A DNA stretch of 29,258 bases from a virus, in the IMG/VR virus record IMGVR_UViG_3300045456_000050, positions 1 to 29,258 of that record; one strand, written 5' to 3'. The notes below the pieces were generated by a model that was given only the letters and a program-made list of their open reading frames with translations, searched no databases and was not told where the DNA came from. Both the position numbers and the translations under genes were made by a program. Below are positions 3,988-13,767 of the stretch, piece after piece. Positions within the stretch are counted from its first letter, which is position 1. Every line of letters begins with the position of its first letter.

Positions 3988-5226
3988 CTAATTCCCCCCT
4001 AAACTTTTGGCTCTTACTGCGGCGGGCGTGACCGCATGATTAAAGTGCTCAAATGCACCCGACAAGGCATCCACCTGATCATCGTGTGCTCCCTGATCGA
4101 ATATCTCTAACTCATCCAGAAAGGCAGCGTTCCAGCGCCCTCGCACCAACTTGACATTGCCCGCCTCGGCCTGCGAACTAACCGGGCCTGCCCTGACCCG
4201 CTTATTTCCGCTTGGTCTCCTTGGCCGGAAATTGTATCCAGACAAAACTTTGCGCCGGTAGTAGTCTATTACCGTCTTTCCAGACGCGCCAGGTTCCTGC
4301 TCCATCTCTATAGATACAGCCCGACCGTCAAGTTCCGCAGTCTGTTTGATTAAGCTCTCTACCGCCTGCGGTGTTCCCCGGATACGTTTTACGTCTATGA
4401 CGTAGTAAATGCCCTCCGACGTTCTGGCCATCAGCAAGCCGACCGTCCAGTCTGGATCAGATCCCGCTCTTTCCGACGCTGCCAAATCCCAATATCTGGC
4501 CATCGGGATGCCCCGCGGGTACTCGTCCACGATATAAAACCACTCTCTGCGGAAAATGCCGCCCATTGGCCTGACATGCCAGTCTCCGTTGAGTAATTGC
4601 TCTCGTGTCACTGGATCAAGCTCCATCAGACTTTGGATATATTCCTCGCGGTCCAGGTAAGGGTTATCCTCCAGCCTAGCCGGGATAAAAGCCTTGACAC
4701 CGTGCACAAACCTGGCAGCCACCCACTCATGGCCAATATCGCCGGGGTTAGTGCCCGCCCGCATCCGGATCGGTATCTTCACCCCTTTAAGCCTCCGTAG
4801 TCGGGAAAAGAGGAATCTATATTGCGTCTCCGAAAACTGAGTTAACTCGTCGAACCCGATAAACTGAAACTCCGCACTCTTATATCGGAACTTGTCACTC
4901 TCAGTCTCTAGATACCCAAAGGTTATTGTGGCACCGCTAGGGAAGTGCCATGTCTTGGTTTTATCGTCCCACCTCGCGGGCGTTCCTGACCACCAATCCT
5001 TTGCCCTGTCCATCAGTGCGCCTGGCAACGACAGGTCTGTATAGTTTTTCCGCAACAGCAGAGCGGAGTATCCGGGGACTTCAACATATTGTGCTGCTGC
5101 CATAAGCAATGCTTCGCTTTTTCCGCCCCCAGCGGCTCCGCCGAAAAGCACCTCCTTGTCAGGCATAAGCAGAAACTTTGCCTGCTTTGTTGTCGGTTCA
5201 GTCGGTATCCACTGGTTCTCCAGCAC
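3988..5226 (-). CDS. terL: Terminase large subunit
   Basis: ATPase-nuclease motor that packages phage DNA through the portal. With the GTG start at 5226 it is 412 residues: Walker A GGAAGGGKS at 29-37, an arginine-rich LLLRKNYTDL segment after it, Walker B-like QFIGFDE at ~121-127, and a C-terminal RNase H-fold nuclease beginning with ARYWDLAAS. The open frame reaches ATG 5304, but that would overlap the small terminase by 107 bp with residues unlike the family. The GTG at 5226 puts a short leader before the conserved KQAKFLLMPDKEVLFGG block; an ATG at the MPDK methionine would be too short. The start is therefore moderately sure, the function very sure. The stop codon is TAG. Confidence 0.93.
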   Translation of the reverse strand: MLENQWIPTEPTTKQAKFLLMPDKEVLFGGAAGGGKSEALLMAAAQYVEVPGYSALLLRKNYTDLSLPGALMDRAKDWWSGTPARWDDKTKTWHFPSGATITFGYLETESDKFRYKSAEFQFIGFDELTQFSETQYRFLFSRLRRLKGVKIPIRMRAGTNPGDIGHEWVAARFVHGVKAFIPARLEDNPYLDREEYIQSLMELDPVTREQLLNGDWHVRPMGGIFRREWFYIVDEYPRGIPMARYWDLAASERAGSDPDWTVGLLMARTSEGIYYVIDVKRIRGTPQAVESLIKQTAELDGRAVSIEMEQEPGASGKTVIDYYRRKVLSGYNFRPRRPSGNKRVRAGPVSSQAEAGNVKLVRGRWNAAFLDELEIFDQGAHDDQVDALSGAFEHFNHAVTPAAVRAKSLGGN

Positions 5227-6594: not shown

Positions 6595-7602
6595 TCACCT
6601 TTCAGCAAATATAAGGATTTCAGTGTCTCTGTTTTCGCTGTCTGGCTGATGGTTCCCATGCCGATATTTATAGTTCACGGGTATTTCTTTTGCCATCTTC
6701 CGGCGCTTTTTAACCATGTCTACAACTTTCCGTCTATCAGCTTTTGGTCCGCCATAACTGAAAACCCATATCTTTGCCCATTCGGCACGTTCCAGCATGT
6801 CTTCGATTAGACTAAATGCCTGGTTCTTATTAAACTCACTTACTGTCGGCTCTTTTATTTCGCCCGCCAATATCCAATCCAACACCTTGTACACTTTTTC
6901 GTAGGGGATAGATCCGTAATACGGCGGGTCAAAGTAAGCTATGTCTGCCCTGGTATGTTCCAGAAACTCCAGCACATCTGCTTGCGTAAAAACGTTTTCT
7001 TCGCCGTTGGAAAACACAGCTCGGTTACTTTTTTCTATTTCTTTCATGAACCTATCTATAGGCGACTTAAGAAAAATTCTTGCGCTGCGCATATGCCCTA
7101 AGGGGAGGTATGTGTTTTCCTTCGCCCGTAGCGTATCGTATGTCCACTGCACGCCAAAGTCCCCATGATGCCTGCTGCGCAATATAAAATTAATAAGAGC
7201 GAGGGTAAAGAGGTCTTTTTTGAGCCCCGACTCTTTTTGTCCTAAATTGCCTCGTATTGTATCAATCAGCAGGGCGTCATCTGGAGTAAAGAACTTATTC
7301 ACCGGGTCTTTTTGGCATAGCGTAAAGTCATTTGGCTTTATAAGTTCCCCAACATCTTGTTTGTTTACCTTGACCCGGCCGTTTTCAATAAGACCCCTGC
7401 CGATGACCGCAGACCGCTCCGCCAGGTCGTTGCAGCGAACCCTATATCCCATCGCCTTTGCGTATAACGAAATGCTCCCGCCGCCAAGGAAAGCATCCGC
7501 AAGAGTCGGGCATTGCTGCGCCCCAGGCAAAAGACCGAATATGGTTTTGAGCAATGCTTGTTTCCCTCCGAAATAAGGAGGGAGTGCCTGCAGAAATTTC
7601 AT
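6595..7602 (-). CDS. D12-class N6-adenine DNA methyltransferase (copy 1)
   Basis: A 335-residue S-adenosylmethionine-dependent methyltransferase of the D12 (Dam-like) class, which puts a methyl group on N6 of adenine in a short DNA site. Visible motifs are PPYFGGK (8-14, motif X), DAFLGGGSIS (36-45, motif I, AdoMet binding) and DPPY at 225-228 (motif IV, catalytic). The C-terminal YKYRHGNHQ and DTEILIF segments fit the family end. It starts directly after the stop of the second copy (TAA then ATG with no gap). The likely role is to protect phage DNA against host restriction or to mark it for packaging. The target site cannot be read from the sequence. Confidence 0.88.
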   Translation of the reverse strand: MKFLQALPPYFGGKQALLKTIFGLLPGAQQCPTLADAFLGGGSISLYAKAMGYRVRCNDLAERSAVIGRGLIENGRVKVNKQDVGELIKPNDFTLCQKDPVNKFFTPDDALLIDTIRGNLGQKESGLKKDLFTLALINFILRSRHHGDFGVQWTYDTLRAKENTYLPLGHMRSARIFLKSPIDRFMKEIEKSNRAVFSNGEENVFTQADVLEFLEHTRADIAYFDPPYYGSIPYEKVYKVLDWILAGEIKEPTVSEFNKNQAFSLIEDMLERAEWAKIWVFSYGGPKADRRKVVDMVKKRRKMAKEIPVNYKYRHGNHQPDSENRDTEILIFAER

Positions 7603-11229: not shown

Positions 11230-11749
11230 CAGCCAGTCGCCTCCAGCTCAGGCTGTTCGCCACCGCCTCAATCTGCAAGCGCACCTTGTCCGGCAACAGC
11301 TCTTGGCCGTGCCGTTCCGCCTCGAATTGTTCGTAAATCCTGATAAACTGCCCCCGCTCGACGCTAAGGTTTTCGCTCAGGCACATCTTGGCAAAGCCAA
11401 TGGCTCGCACCGCGCGAGCCGTCTCCGGTGATAAGCTCGCCATGCCTTCTGCCTGCGCATAGTACCCGTAACGGTCCAGAGCGCTGTTAACCTCTTCCCA
11501 GGCTTCGGCCGCGGATTTGCGCTGTGGGAACATGATCTTAACAGCTTCTTTGCGCACTTCGGCAATGGTTGGAGGGTGAATGCTGGAAAAGATGTGCTTT
11601 TTGACTGCTATCTGCGCAACGTCGTAGTCGAGATCGCCTAGCAACTCGTGCCAAACGTCGCCTTTAAGTTCGTCCACGCTAAAGCGAGTCGGGAATGCCG
11701 CTGCTATAACTGCCAGCAGTTTGCCGATTTCGGCCTTCTTCAAGCGCAT
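11219..11749 (-). CDS. Replicative helicase loader/inhibitor (G39P-like)
   Basis: A 176-residue protein with the N-terminal pattern of G39P-type helicase loader/inhibitors (known from SPP1): KKAEIGKLLAVIAAAFPTRF, then DVWHELLGDLDYDVAQIAVK and the conserved HPPTIAEVRKEAVK. These proteins bind the host or phage replicative helicase, hold it inactive, and deliver it to the initiator at the origin. The adjacent DnaD-like protein would be the initiator partner, as in SPP1 gp38-gp39. The two genes overlap by 71 bp in different frames, which argues for tight coupling. Either ATG 11749 or TTG 11743 fits the GAGGAGG site. Confidence 0.75.
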   Translation of the reverse strand: MRLKKAEIGKLLAVIAAAFPTRFSVDELKGDVWHELLGDLDYDVAQIAVKKHIFSSIHPPTIAEVRKEAVKIMFPQRKSAAEAWEEVNSALDRYGYYAQAEGMASLSPETARAVRAIGFAKMCLSENLSVERGQFIRIYEQFEAERHGQELLPDKVRLQIEAVANSLSWRRLADGS

Positions 11750-12560
11750 CGTCCTCCTCGTACTTTTTTACCAAACGCAAAGCGGCCTCGACGTTTGGCG
11801 CGTATTTGCCCGTTGGCGTTTTTGAGCGTTCATCCTCATACCGTTGGACAACCCAGTTAAGGATTGTGCGGTAGTCGGACTTGTACGTTTTGCCGGTAGA
11901 GCCTTTGTAGTTGTCGAGTATCTCGATTATCCGCAGCGTTCCTGCTTCGCCGTATTTCGCCACGAGTGACGAGTGCTCGTCATTGGTCAGGCTGACAAAT
12001 TCAGCAAAGGAGTGCTTTGGTGCCAACGGCTTTTTCTTCCCGGTGGTGCGTGTTTGCGCGGGTTCATCTCCCATTCCCATCCCATTCCCATCCCATTCCC
12101 TACCCATCCCATACCCAAACCCAGTAACACCACTTAGCGACATGCTTTCATCTATTTGGTTGCAAGCTTGCGGTGATTTGGTTGCAATGTTATCGCTGTC
12201 AGGGTGAACGTCTGCGGTAAAATCATCAGGCGGCATCGGCAGTTTCGACGGCTTTGGGTACCTGGGCGCTTGGTATCTCGACCAGTGGCGGAAGGCAAGG
12301 TAACTTGTCCCGTTTACTGTGTAATGAACTAGGTTCCGGCATGTTGACACAACTCGGTCGCGCATTTTCTCAACATCAGCTATTTTGATGTCATCATAAG
12401 GGAAGATTACGCTGCGCAAGTAAGCCGGATCGCCAAGTAGCCTGCCTTCATCATCAGCGTTTGAAAAACAACCGATGAAAAATAATCGTTCCACAGCCGC
12501 CAGTTTGCCAATCGTTGGGTCAATCCAGAAGTCCGGATGGATAAATCTTTGTCGTGGCAT
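11679..12560 (-). CDS. DnaD-like phage replication initiator
   Basis: A 293-residue replication protein. The N-terminal ~110 residues (FIHPDFWIDPTIGKLAAVER, SNADDEGRLLGDPAYLRS, YLAFRHWSRYQAPRYPKPSK) form the winged-helix domain of phage replisome-organiser proteins. A linker (~115-185) follows, with a low-complexity GYGMGREWDGNGMGMGD stretch encoded by tandem DNA repeats. Residues ~190-255 (SFAEFVSLTNDEH, YGEAGTLRIIEILDNY, SDYRTILNWVVQRYEDE) are the C-terminal domain common to such proteins. By analogy with lambda O and SPP1 gp38, it binds an origin inside its own gene and recruits the helicase through the G39P-like protein. ATG 12560 has GAGGGGTG upstream. A structured RNA candidate lies in its leader. 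Confidence 0.75.
   Translation of the reverse strand: MPRQRFIHPDFWIDPTIGKLAAVERLFFIGCFSNADDEGRLLGDPAYLRSVIFPYDDIKIADVEKMRDRVVSTCRNLVHYTVNGTSYLAFRHWSRYQAPRYPKPSKLPMPPDDFTADVHPDSDNIATKSPQACNQIDESMSLSGVTGFGYGMGREWDGNGMGMGDEPAQTRTTGKKKPLAPKHSFAEFVSLTNDEHSSLVAKYGEAGTLRIIEILDNYKGSTGKTYKSDYRTILNWVVQRYEDERSKTPTGKYAPNVEAALRLVKKYEEDDALEEGRNRQTAGSYSSGIPDSL
12070..12122. repeat. Tandem 11-bp GGG-rich repeats, candidate replication origin
   Basis: On the plus strand CCCATTCCCAT is repeated at 12070-12080 and 12081-12091, followed by two degenerate copies and further CCC runs to 12122. The complementary (coding) strand therefore has about ten closely spaced GGG runs. The 11-bp unit is not a multiple of three but matches a helical turn, which points to selection on DNA rather than protein. 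Iterons in the middle of the initiator gene are the origin in lambda and related phages. The G runs could also form a quadruplex. Confidence 0.55.
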
Positions 12561-12605
12561 TTAAGCACCCCTCAAGCCCCGGTTAGGATAATCTTTCCAA
12601 TTATC

Positions 12606-12738
12606 AGGCGGGCCGGATTCGAACCGGCTGTGCTACTTGTGCAACCATGTGCTTGCTAGCCGGCAAGGCGTTCTCCTGACAGCCCCAGGAGTCAGACATC
12701 CTGGCACATGGTATCTGGCTGTTCCCGCCATGCCGCCC
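12606..12738 (-). ncRNA. tRNA-like structured RNA candidate
   Basis: Between the cytosine methyltransferase stop and the replication initiator, on the minus strand, is a perfect T-arm: GCCGG (12628-12624), loop TTCGAAT, CCGGC (12616-12612). It is followed by CCGCCT, which pairs with GGGCGG at 12738-12733 like an acceptor stem. A D-arm-like TGGC/GCCA lies at 12730-12727/12719-12716. An 8-bp helix CCATGTGC/GCACATGG (12711-12704/12652-12645) takes the anticodon-arm place but encloses ~50 bases with further hairpins (CAGGA/TCCTG; alternative CTCCTG/CAGGAG at 12691-12686/12678-12673). It is not a canonical tRNA: there is no normal anticodon loop and no CCA. It could be a regulatory leader, a tRNA mimic or a decayed tRNA. 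Confidence 0.45.
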
Positions 12739-12745
12739 CCTACCT

Positions 12746-13543
12746 CTACCACAGTTCCATCTTGCCTTCCGTCTTCCGCCTAGCGTGGCTTGACCCTTTC
12801 ACCGCCGCGCCAAGGCCCGCTGTGGCCAACAGACTCCGTTTCAGTGCCTCATATGTGCCGTACCCGCCTTTCGCCAGCCTTAGGCTAAACGCATCAATTA
12901 CCGGCAATCCCTCCGGCGTCACCATGCTCAAAATCCCCGGCACGTTCTCCATGATGAAACTTTTGGGCTGTATCTCCAAAATTTTGTCCGCGAACTCAAA
13001 CACCAGGCTGTTGCGCGGGTCCATGATATCGCGCTTGCCGGACATGCTGAACCCTTGGCAGGGCGGGCCGCCGACAATACAGTCTATCTCGCCTGGCTTG
13101 ACGCCCAGCTTCTCCATGATAAAAGCGCCGGAGAATTTGCGTATGTCGCCGTAGAAGTAATTAGACGTTCCCGGAATATCAGGATAATCTTTTATCCAGC
13201 CGCTGCCGCTGTAGAACGGCAGGCCGTCAACACTATGTTTAGCCTGGAATTTCTTCATCTTTTTCTCCAGATATTTTGCAAACTTATCCTTGTCCTCCGG
13301 CTCGGCGAAGTGAATCTGCACCGGGTAAGCGCCGAGGTTGACCAGGTATGTAACCATGCAATGAATATCAAAATCTAGAGCGGCAACAACCTCAAAGCCG
13401 GCTTGCTTCATGCCTAAGGAAAACCCGCCTGCACCGGCAAAGAGATCAATGCAAGTTGGCCGCCGCTTGGCCAGACGCTCCGGCACAAAAAAGCCGCGCC
13501 GGTTAAGGCTGTAGTCCTGGTACAAGAAATTAGGTGCCTGCAT
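12746..13543 (-). CDS. Short C5-cytosine DNA methyltransferase
   Basis: A 265-residue protein of the C5-cytosine methyltransferase family, which transfers a methyl group from AdoMet to carbon 5 of cytosine. Motif I is CIDLFAGAGGFSLG (about 31-44), motif IV is GGPPCQGFS with the catalytic Cys near 162, and motif VI is ENV near 199-201. After motif VI only ~65 residues remain, so the usual QxRxR motif VIII, the target recognition domain and motifs IX-X are not visible. The end (GYGTYEALKRSLLATAGLGAAV) is still family-like, so this may be a compact phage subfamily or a truncated enzyme that needs a partner. ATG 13543, just after the upstream stop, was chosen over ATG 13621 inside the previous gene. 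Confidence 0.82.
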   Translation of the reverse strand: MQAPNFLYQDYSLNRRGFFVPERLAKRRPTCIDLFAGAGGFSLGMKQAGFEVVAALDFDIHCMVTYLVNLGAYPVQIHFAEPEDKDKFAKYLEKKMKKFQAKHSVDGLPFYSGSGWIKDYPDIPGTSNYFYGDIRKFSGAFIMEKLGVKPGEIDCIVGGPPCQGFSMSGKRDIMDPRNSLVFEFADKILEIQPKSFIMENVPGILSMVTPEGLPVIDAFSLRLAKGGYGTYEALKRSLLATAGLGAAVKGSSHARRKTEGKMELW

Positions 13544-13548
13544 CGTGG

Positions 13549-13767
13549 TCACGCTCCCAACCGTATAAACGCAATAAATTCTTCCTGGACGTCCGGCGGA
13601 TAGCCGTTGCAGTACGGGCAACCCTTCATCCGCCGGAATTCGCTGTGTTTATTTGATATCCACCAGGAATACTCGTGAAACATAACTTCATTGCCGTCTT
13701 TAATGTCGTTAACGTCGATGTAGGCCTGGAAATACCGTTGATATTGCTTGCCTCTATCAACGATCAT
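13549..13767 (-). CDS. Small CxxC protein
   Basis: A 72-residue protein with an aromatic-rich N-terminal half (QYQRYFQAYIDVND, FHEYSWWIS) and a CPYC motif near its end (MKGCPYCNGYPPDV). The single CxxC pair may bind zinc in a dimer or serve as a redox pair. I recognise no family. The start ATG 13767 follows GAGGGGTG and overlaps the end of the upstream gene by 11 bp. It precedes the cytosine methyltransferase gene by 5 bases, so the two are co-expressed. Confidence 0.5.
   Translation of the reverse strand: MIVDRGKQYQRYFQAYIDVNDIKDGNEVMFHEYSWWISNKHSEFRRMKGCPYCNGYPPDVQEEFIAFIRLGA

Follow-up and report, generated by a model that had tools for sequence, protein, structure and literature searches.

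The 29,258-base DNA stretch analyzed here (IMG/VR record IMGVR_UViG_3300045456_000050; hereafter the window) carries, at positions 12605..12742 on the minus strand, a 138-nt RNA that is a member of a family of phage tRNA-like RNAs, with an imperfect acceptor and D-stem. Comparison among relatives establishes the family together with its strand, secondary structure, covariation, modularity and genomic setting, and its RNAs lie in the sense orientation of phage operons and can stand in tRNA arrays. The family is apparently undescribed; it is absent from Rfam 15, and a search of the openly licensed literature found no description of it. Membership of the window element was assessed with covariance models. 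Model R2, for which 37 homologues from outside the subfamily of the window were used, finds a single place in the window (12742-12605, minus strand, full length, 44.9 bits) with an E-value of 4.5e-9 that is rough owing to a short calibration, and it also finds the three subfamily relatives. Model R1, whose training set includes the window element, scores it at 61.8 bits. ARAGORN calls no tRNA at this element and Rfam reports no family at gathering score for the window. A second record, IMGVR_UViG_3300045454_000059, carries the same region with a 100% identical intergenic stretch.

The original prediction, derived from the sequence of the window, had described an unusually structured, tRNA-like RNA in the leader of the replication initiator gene without giving its strand. 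All complementary segments that it listed exist, and the RNA is on the minus strand. The claim of unusual structuredness is carried by the covariance-model match and by covariation within the subfamily, but not by folding energy, which is ordinary for the minus strand (z -0.99; 35/200 shuffles equally good) and is uninformative as a test of this RNA. The plus strand folds slightly better (z -2.1), but a plus-strand RNA was rejected, as three features indicate the minus strand: the canonical TTCRAAT T-loop, the matches to the family and the orientation of the flanking genes.

Relatives were traced through their conserved blocks, and the loci in which relatives or pattern matches were found are given L-numbers. 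A pattern for the T-arm and the 3' side of the acceptor matched 13 viral contigs, several of which contain ordinary tRNAs. L064, L065, L066, L070 and L073 have in common a second block, close to GGCGGCGGCGTGGTGGGAACACGC, located 5' of a variable middle. Searches with this D-arm block yielded further members, and 66 distinct sequences passed a pairing filter, three of which span two copies (L082_6673, L144_3393 and L148_3596). Other pattern matches, for example L080, L098, L106, L107, L137 and L170, were rejected as chance matches in coding sequence. The resulting family layout consists of a 7-nt acceptor strand ending in GG, two nucleotides (CG), a D-arm (GCGTG-GTGGGAA-CACGC), the middle, an A, the T-arm and the 3' side of the acceptor. 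An eighth acceptor pair is not conserved and the acceptor is therefore of 7 bp, like that of an ordinary tRNA. The T-arm has 5 bp and a loop that mostly reads TTCGAAT or TTCAAAT, and the position before the T-stem is A in 61/63 members. The variable middle, which replaces the anticodon and variable region, measures 27-253 nt with a median of 74.

This chassis is supported by strong covariation. In alignment A3 (41 sequences), 97% of the cells pair and 120 cells are changed on both sides, compared to 30.0 in shuffles (sd 4.6), and the covariation score is 0.504 versus 0.123 in shuffles and 0.045-0.066 in slid versions. Four of the five T-stem pairs are changed on both sides, with 100% of the cells paired, and the acceptor covaries as well. 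Since the members of A3 had been pre-filtered on pairing, an unbiased test was run on the D-arm matches alone: 42/73 have their own acceptor complement beside a 5-bp/7-nt hairpin within 300 nt, whereas swapping the acceptors among loci in 100 repeats gave a mean of 0.7 and a maximum of 4. The near-invariant D-stem is too uniform to be informative on covariation, and this uniformity suggests that its sequence is specifically recognized. With about 65 distinct relatives sharing a conserved, covarying tRNA chassis, there is support for a tRNA mimic, one of three interpretations offered by the original prediction.

In the window copy, the acceptor 5' strand TAGGGGG (12736..12742, minus) pairs with the 3' strand CCGCCTG (12605..12611, minus), which is without an encoded CCA. 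An acceptor-like pairing had been predicted and is present, in this better register given by the homologues and the covariance model. Relatives have perfect or near-perfect, covarying acceptors; the window has a G.G mismatch at position 5 and T.G at position 1. An alternative, shifted register of 5 bp (GGCGG/CCGCC) means that a small deletion at the junction of acceptor and D-arm is possible in this copy. The D-arm GCATG GCGGGAA CAGCC (12717..12733, minus), aligned to the near-invariant family D-arm, is weaker than the consensus, with two non-standard D-stem pairs. The A equivalent to tRNA position 48 lies at 12629 (minus), directly 5' of the T-arm GCCGG TTCGAAT CCGGC (12612..12628, minus), whose five perfect pairs and loop are as predicted.

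The middle of the window element is common to a subfamily of four members, the others being L161, L169 and L203; an 18-nt subfamily pattern has one unrelated match, L202. Of the 25 pairs proposed for this subfamily, 10 are changed on both sides, a number reached in 0/500 shuffles. The 8-bp helix that was predicted to replace the anticodon arm (helix A, or P2) is formed by ACCATGTG (12712-12705, minus) and CACATGGT (12651-12644, minus). All eight pairs are present in 4/4 members, with strands reading ACCATGTG/CACATGGT, ACCTAGTG/CACTAGGT, ATTGCGTG/CACGCAGT and ACTACATG/CATGTAGT, and four pairs are changed on both sides. Enclosed by this helix is the inner hairpin CTCCTG-GGGCTGT-CAGGAG (12673..12691, minus), of which five pairs are kept in 4/4 members with four double changes. 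Of the two hairpins described as mutually exclusive, CTCCTG/CAGGAG is thus conserved and covaries, whereas CCAGGA/TCCTGG has no counterpart among the subfamily members.

The loop of the inner hairpin may take part in a pseudoknot. Its GCTGT (12679..12683, minus), the proposed 5' strand of helix B, can pair with GTAGC (12632..12636, minus) just before the T-stem in 4/4 members; 100% of the cells are paired, with changes on one side only and no double change. The partner that had originally been suggested, ACAGCC in the D-arm (12717-12722), is possible, with 95.8% of the cells paired and one double change. The pairing between loop and pre-T segment is preferred in this subfamily, though not proved, on account of its higher proportion of paired cells and its match to a topology that is enriched throughout the family.

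This topology involves a helix that adjoins the T-stem with its 3' strand and crosses another helix; it is found at p<=0.05 in 17/63 members, and the enrichment of pseudoknot domains over dinucleotide shuffles has a Kolmogorov-Smirnov (KS) p of 4e-8. The middle domain is hypervariable and is predicted often to form an H-type pseudoknot. Examples from other subfamilies are the helices CTGCGG/CCGCAG and CTCCGG/CCGGAG of L121 and L147, with TGCTGGT/ACCAGCA and TGCTCGT/ACGAGCA, and the helices CGTGGGG/CTCCACG and CGCGAA/TTCGCG of L084 and L189, with GGCAG/CTGCC. The middles fall into only seven small clusters, the remainder being singletons. In L087, L096 and L099, the flanking DNA can be aligned and the 5' halves of the chassis are identical, but the middles are unrelated. 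Furthermore, several contigs, such as L144, L160, L082, L090, L103 and L203, carry two or three copies with different middles.

Some middles contain coding sequence. An HNH-endonuclease-like open reading frame (ORF) fills the middle of L083 (2910-3398), from just past the D-arm to the T-stem. In L093 (element at 629-931, reversed locus), the middle of about 250 nt holds a small ORF (MSYKRPNPGRRERE...) extending into the T-arm. In L102 (reversed, from about 10317), a gene with the product MPSTTIQYFTYDHLPLQLQKIAKPIAELAFHMEE... comes after the 5' half of the element, and no T-arm was found. This product may resemble the Acb2 anti-CBASS family.

The window element fills the gap between two genes that are likewise on the minus strand. 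Upstream lies a C5-cytosine DNA methyltransferase gene (12746..13621, minus; Pfam PF00145, E 4.7e-30), and the RNA starts 3 nt past its stop codon. The downstream gene encodes a replication initiator or replisome organizer (11679..12560, minus; PHROG 13246, E 7.7e-30, and PHROG 2149). Among the relatives, for all of which the strand was set by the canonical T-loop, a Shine-Dalgarno (SD) sequence and a start codon follow within 90 nt in 36/63, compared to 2/63 in the antisense upstream control. The predicted position in the leader of the next gene is hence usual for the family, with a spacing between element and start codon that varies. Several upstream genes end 2-24 nt before the element, too close for a separate promoter to fit in between. 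An automatic survey found the nearest ORF of at least 100 amino acids on the same strand in 44/54 cases upstream and 46/57 downstream, which is weaker evidence as spurious ORFs are included. Neighboring genes are often involved in replication or recombination and are of many kinds. Elsewhere, the same RNA precedes genes for DNA polymerase, DUF3310, YqaJ-like, HNH and other proteins, or tRNA genes, and the downstream genes are unrelated to one another. Some elements are near structural genes (L193 and L203), with functions read from translations rather than from a family search.

Several elements adjoin canonical tRNA genes. In L144, L145 and L162, the element begins 1 nt after a called tRNA gene (ARAGORN coordinates), the spacer reading ACT with the discriminator included, and in L178, a tRNA-Trp lies 6 nt downstream of the element. 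At such distances of 1-6 nt, the element ends coincide with tRNA processing sites. Two further hairpins recur in these surroundings. One, TGACR-(4-5 bp stem)-GAGAGA-(stem)-RA, e.g. GTGACACGCCGGAGAGACGGCGA, is often found 2-8 nt upstream of the tRNA-like element; it occurs 27 times in sense versus 4 times in antisense orientation, and its stem varies in sequence while pairing is kept. Sites are located in L096 (~4508-4524, reverse-strand numbering), L099, L084 (2484 and 2644), L087 (1581), L090 (3871 and 4117), L104 (3637), L145 (491), L148, L150 (112) and L200 (11396). The other hairpin, CCGGACAAACGTAACCGGCAAATA or GCCGGATAGCGTAACCGGCAAAG, is common to L145 (~120-143), L162 (~6990-7012) and L121 (downstream of the element), and is placed either near elements or immediately upstream of tRNA genes.

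Relatives are nearly all found in uncultivated phage contigs, many of them unrelated, and a few in metagenome-assembled genomes (MAGs) of Chloroflexota. Three such MAGs carry the element, one of them twice on a 1.45-Mb contig, and a scan of 121 Chloroflexota genomes with R1 gave matches in five, three of them strong. A scan of the genomes of 84,980 species required GCGG, a pattern later found to be too strict, so that the cellular distribution is underestimated. By DNA similarity, no member was recognized among 50,697 phage records and 72,556 plasmid records.

Of the known tRNA-like RNAs, class II tRNAs (Leu/Ser) are similar in the 7-bp acceptor, the 2-nt spacer, the position of the D-arm and the 5-bp T-arm with TTCRAAT loop stacked on the acceptor, in keeping with the canonical TTCRANY loop, and family elements sit beside real tRNAs. 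The family differs in the absence of an anticodon arm, of CCA and of a fixed discriminator, in the A at position 48, and in a variable domain of 27-253 nt that is often a pseudoknot; its members stay below the Rfam tRNA threshold, and neither RF00005 nor ARAGORN detects them, except for an ARAGORN call on one copy in L090. Transfer-messenger RNA (tmRNA; RF00023 and relatives) also has a tRNA-like acceptor and T-arm enclosing pseudoknots without an anticodon, but the family is far shorter and has a D-stem, which tmRNA lacks. No tmRNA match is reported by Rfam at gathering score, nor, with the limit relaxed to E 10, for the window region or the short member L103. A consistent reading frame for a tag was not noticed, although no systematic test for one was made. 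The bacterial Y RNA YrlA is a noncoding RNA of bacteria and phages with a tRNA-like module, a likeness to the present family, whose ends by contrast form an acceptor and not a Ro-binding stem. Identity with YrlA was rejected, as there is no Rfam match and no Ro60/TROVE gene in any of 25 records (control genome positive). MascRNA, the tRNA-like structure at the end of MALAT1, and menRNA (RF01684) are tRNA-like elements in longer transcripts that are processed by RNase P and RNase Z. They share with the family this location in a longer transcript, but belong to animal nuclear long noncoding RNAs and are without a pseudoknot module. For the window itself, the best Rfam match at a permissive limit is tRNA-Sec (RF01852; 14.3 bits, E 3.3), far below the gathering score of 47; the family acceptor has 7 bp instead of 8, and there is no anticodon. 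Plant RNA viruses carry tRNA-like structures that mimic tRNA and contain pseudoknots, a likeness in viral tRNA mimicry, but these lie at the 3' ends of RNA genomes and show no homology, whereas the family belongs to DNA phages and is internal to operons.

We consider it about an even chance that the tRNA chassis is matured by host tRNA enzymes and carries an interchangeable effector module that acts in trans. To these enzymes, the 7-bp acceptor, 2-nt spacer, D-arm and T-arm would resemble the upper half of a tRNA, with the anticodon and variable arms replaced by the exchangeable, mostly pseudoknotted module. Judging from its sense orientation and tight spacing, the RNA would be transcribed within a polycistronic phage mRNA, after which host RNase P would most likely cut the 5' end and RNase Z or exonucleases the 3' end. 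Such tRNA-like excision, proposed from what is established about how RNase P and RNase Z cut, would release a stable small RNA and two separate mRNAs. With low confidence, the tRNA-like part may then protect the module and present it to a tRNA-binding host factor, for which a tRNA-targeting defense nuclease or a translation factor are candidates; the rapid turnover of modules tentatively suggests a changing partner. Several observations weigh against this proposal. The near-invariant D-arm is more constrained than recognition by tRNA enzymes requires and suggests a specific partner; no CCA is encoded, and the discriminator base is not constant. L081, L088, L097 and L100, of which L081 and L100 also have an 8-nt D-loop, carry non-canonical T-loops (GGTAACGT, ATCGTAA, ATCATAT and AGTAGCGC). 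Neighbor functions offer no clue to the target, and the window copy, with its acceptor mismatch and non-standard D-stem pairs, is a weak member.

The strongest rival is a purely cis-acting processing or stability element, in which the fold marks a cleavage point between genes and the released RNA is functionless, leaving the middle to drift. The sense orientation and tight intergenic placement, the varied neighboring genes and a weak similarity between mascRNA and the shortest member (17.8 bits, E 0.17, below gathering) fit this explanation. It is nonetheless unlikely, given that the middles are kept by compensatory changes within subfamilies and are enriched in pseudoknots, and that tandem copies with different middles and copies beside real tRNAs would be redundant as cut sites. 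Less probable still is a cis-regulatory leader, riboswitch-like or with two states, that controls translation of the next gene, here the initiator. The closeness of SD sequence and start codon in more than half of the members and the complex, pseudoknotted folds would suit it. However, the following genes are unrelated, some elements precede tRNAs or other RNAs, and the start-codon spacing is not fixed. T-boxes and riboswitches combine a conserved sensor with a conserved class of regulated genes, whereas here the sensor-like middle is the least conserved part. The switch between two folds that the original prediction had considered for the initiator is likewise disfavored, as the competing hairpin is not conserved.

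Mobility offers another, quite improbable explanation, according to which the middle serves as a landing site, and homing or recombination at the tRNA-like sequence spreads the RNA. The HNH-like ORF inside L083, an HNH-like gene after the element in L085 and the occurrence of the same module in phages with different neighbor genes agree with it, but most members lack an ORF, and ordinary phage mosaicism suffices for the spread. An attachment site, with the 3' end of a tRNA as attP core, was rejected on the grounds that conservation extends to both halves and that the elements are located in the middle of operons. Lowest in our estimate, and highly improbable, is an unusual or decaying class II (Leu-/Ser-like) tRNA that still decodes, or its remnant. 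The D-arm region does match a Leu-type D-arm in length and partly in sequence, and the second copies in L082, L176 and L203 carry an ordinary one (GGCGGAA...AGACGC). The 89-nt copy in L090 (3895-3983), which has a class II tRNA-Ser(AGA)-like fold and is called tRNA-Ser(AGA) by ARAGORN, is possibly an intermediate between tRNA and the tRNA-like family. Anticodon-like arms 3' of the D-arm are, however, at chance level: a full stem with T33 is found in 1/63 members against 0.28 expected (relaxed, 5 versus 2.7), on which basis a decoding tRNA was rejected for the 63 members. No element matches an Rfam tRNA family at gathering score. Decay is excluded by the strong covariation, and the tRNA-derived remnant envisaged in the original prediction is rejected: compensatory changes preserve the stems, and even unrelated phages have a nearly invariant D-arm.

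Few tRNA-like noncoding RNAs are known, and each has taught something about how RNA is processed and policed in cells. Here, a large RNA family of DNA phages combines a fixed tRNA chassis with a structured module that is exchanged rapidly, and some of its members lie 1 nt from tRNA genes. The family is a reminder that a class of phage genes escapes tRNA finders. Whether phages make use of tRNA maturation in producing and protecting effector RNAs becomes a testable question with this family. A possible, though rather unlikely, extension is that phages use the upper half of a tRNA as a general, host-processed scaffold for interchangeable pseudoknot effectors that neutralize different host factors, for example tRNA-sensing or tRNA-cutting defenses. 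If true, this scaffold would be the RNA counterpart of a diversified anti-defense protein family.
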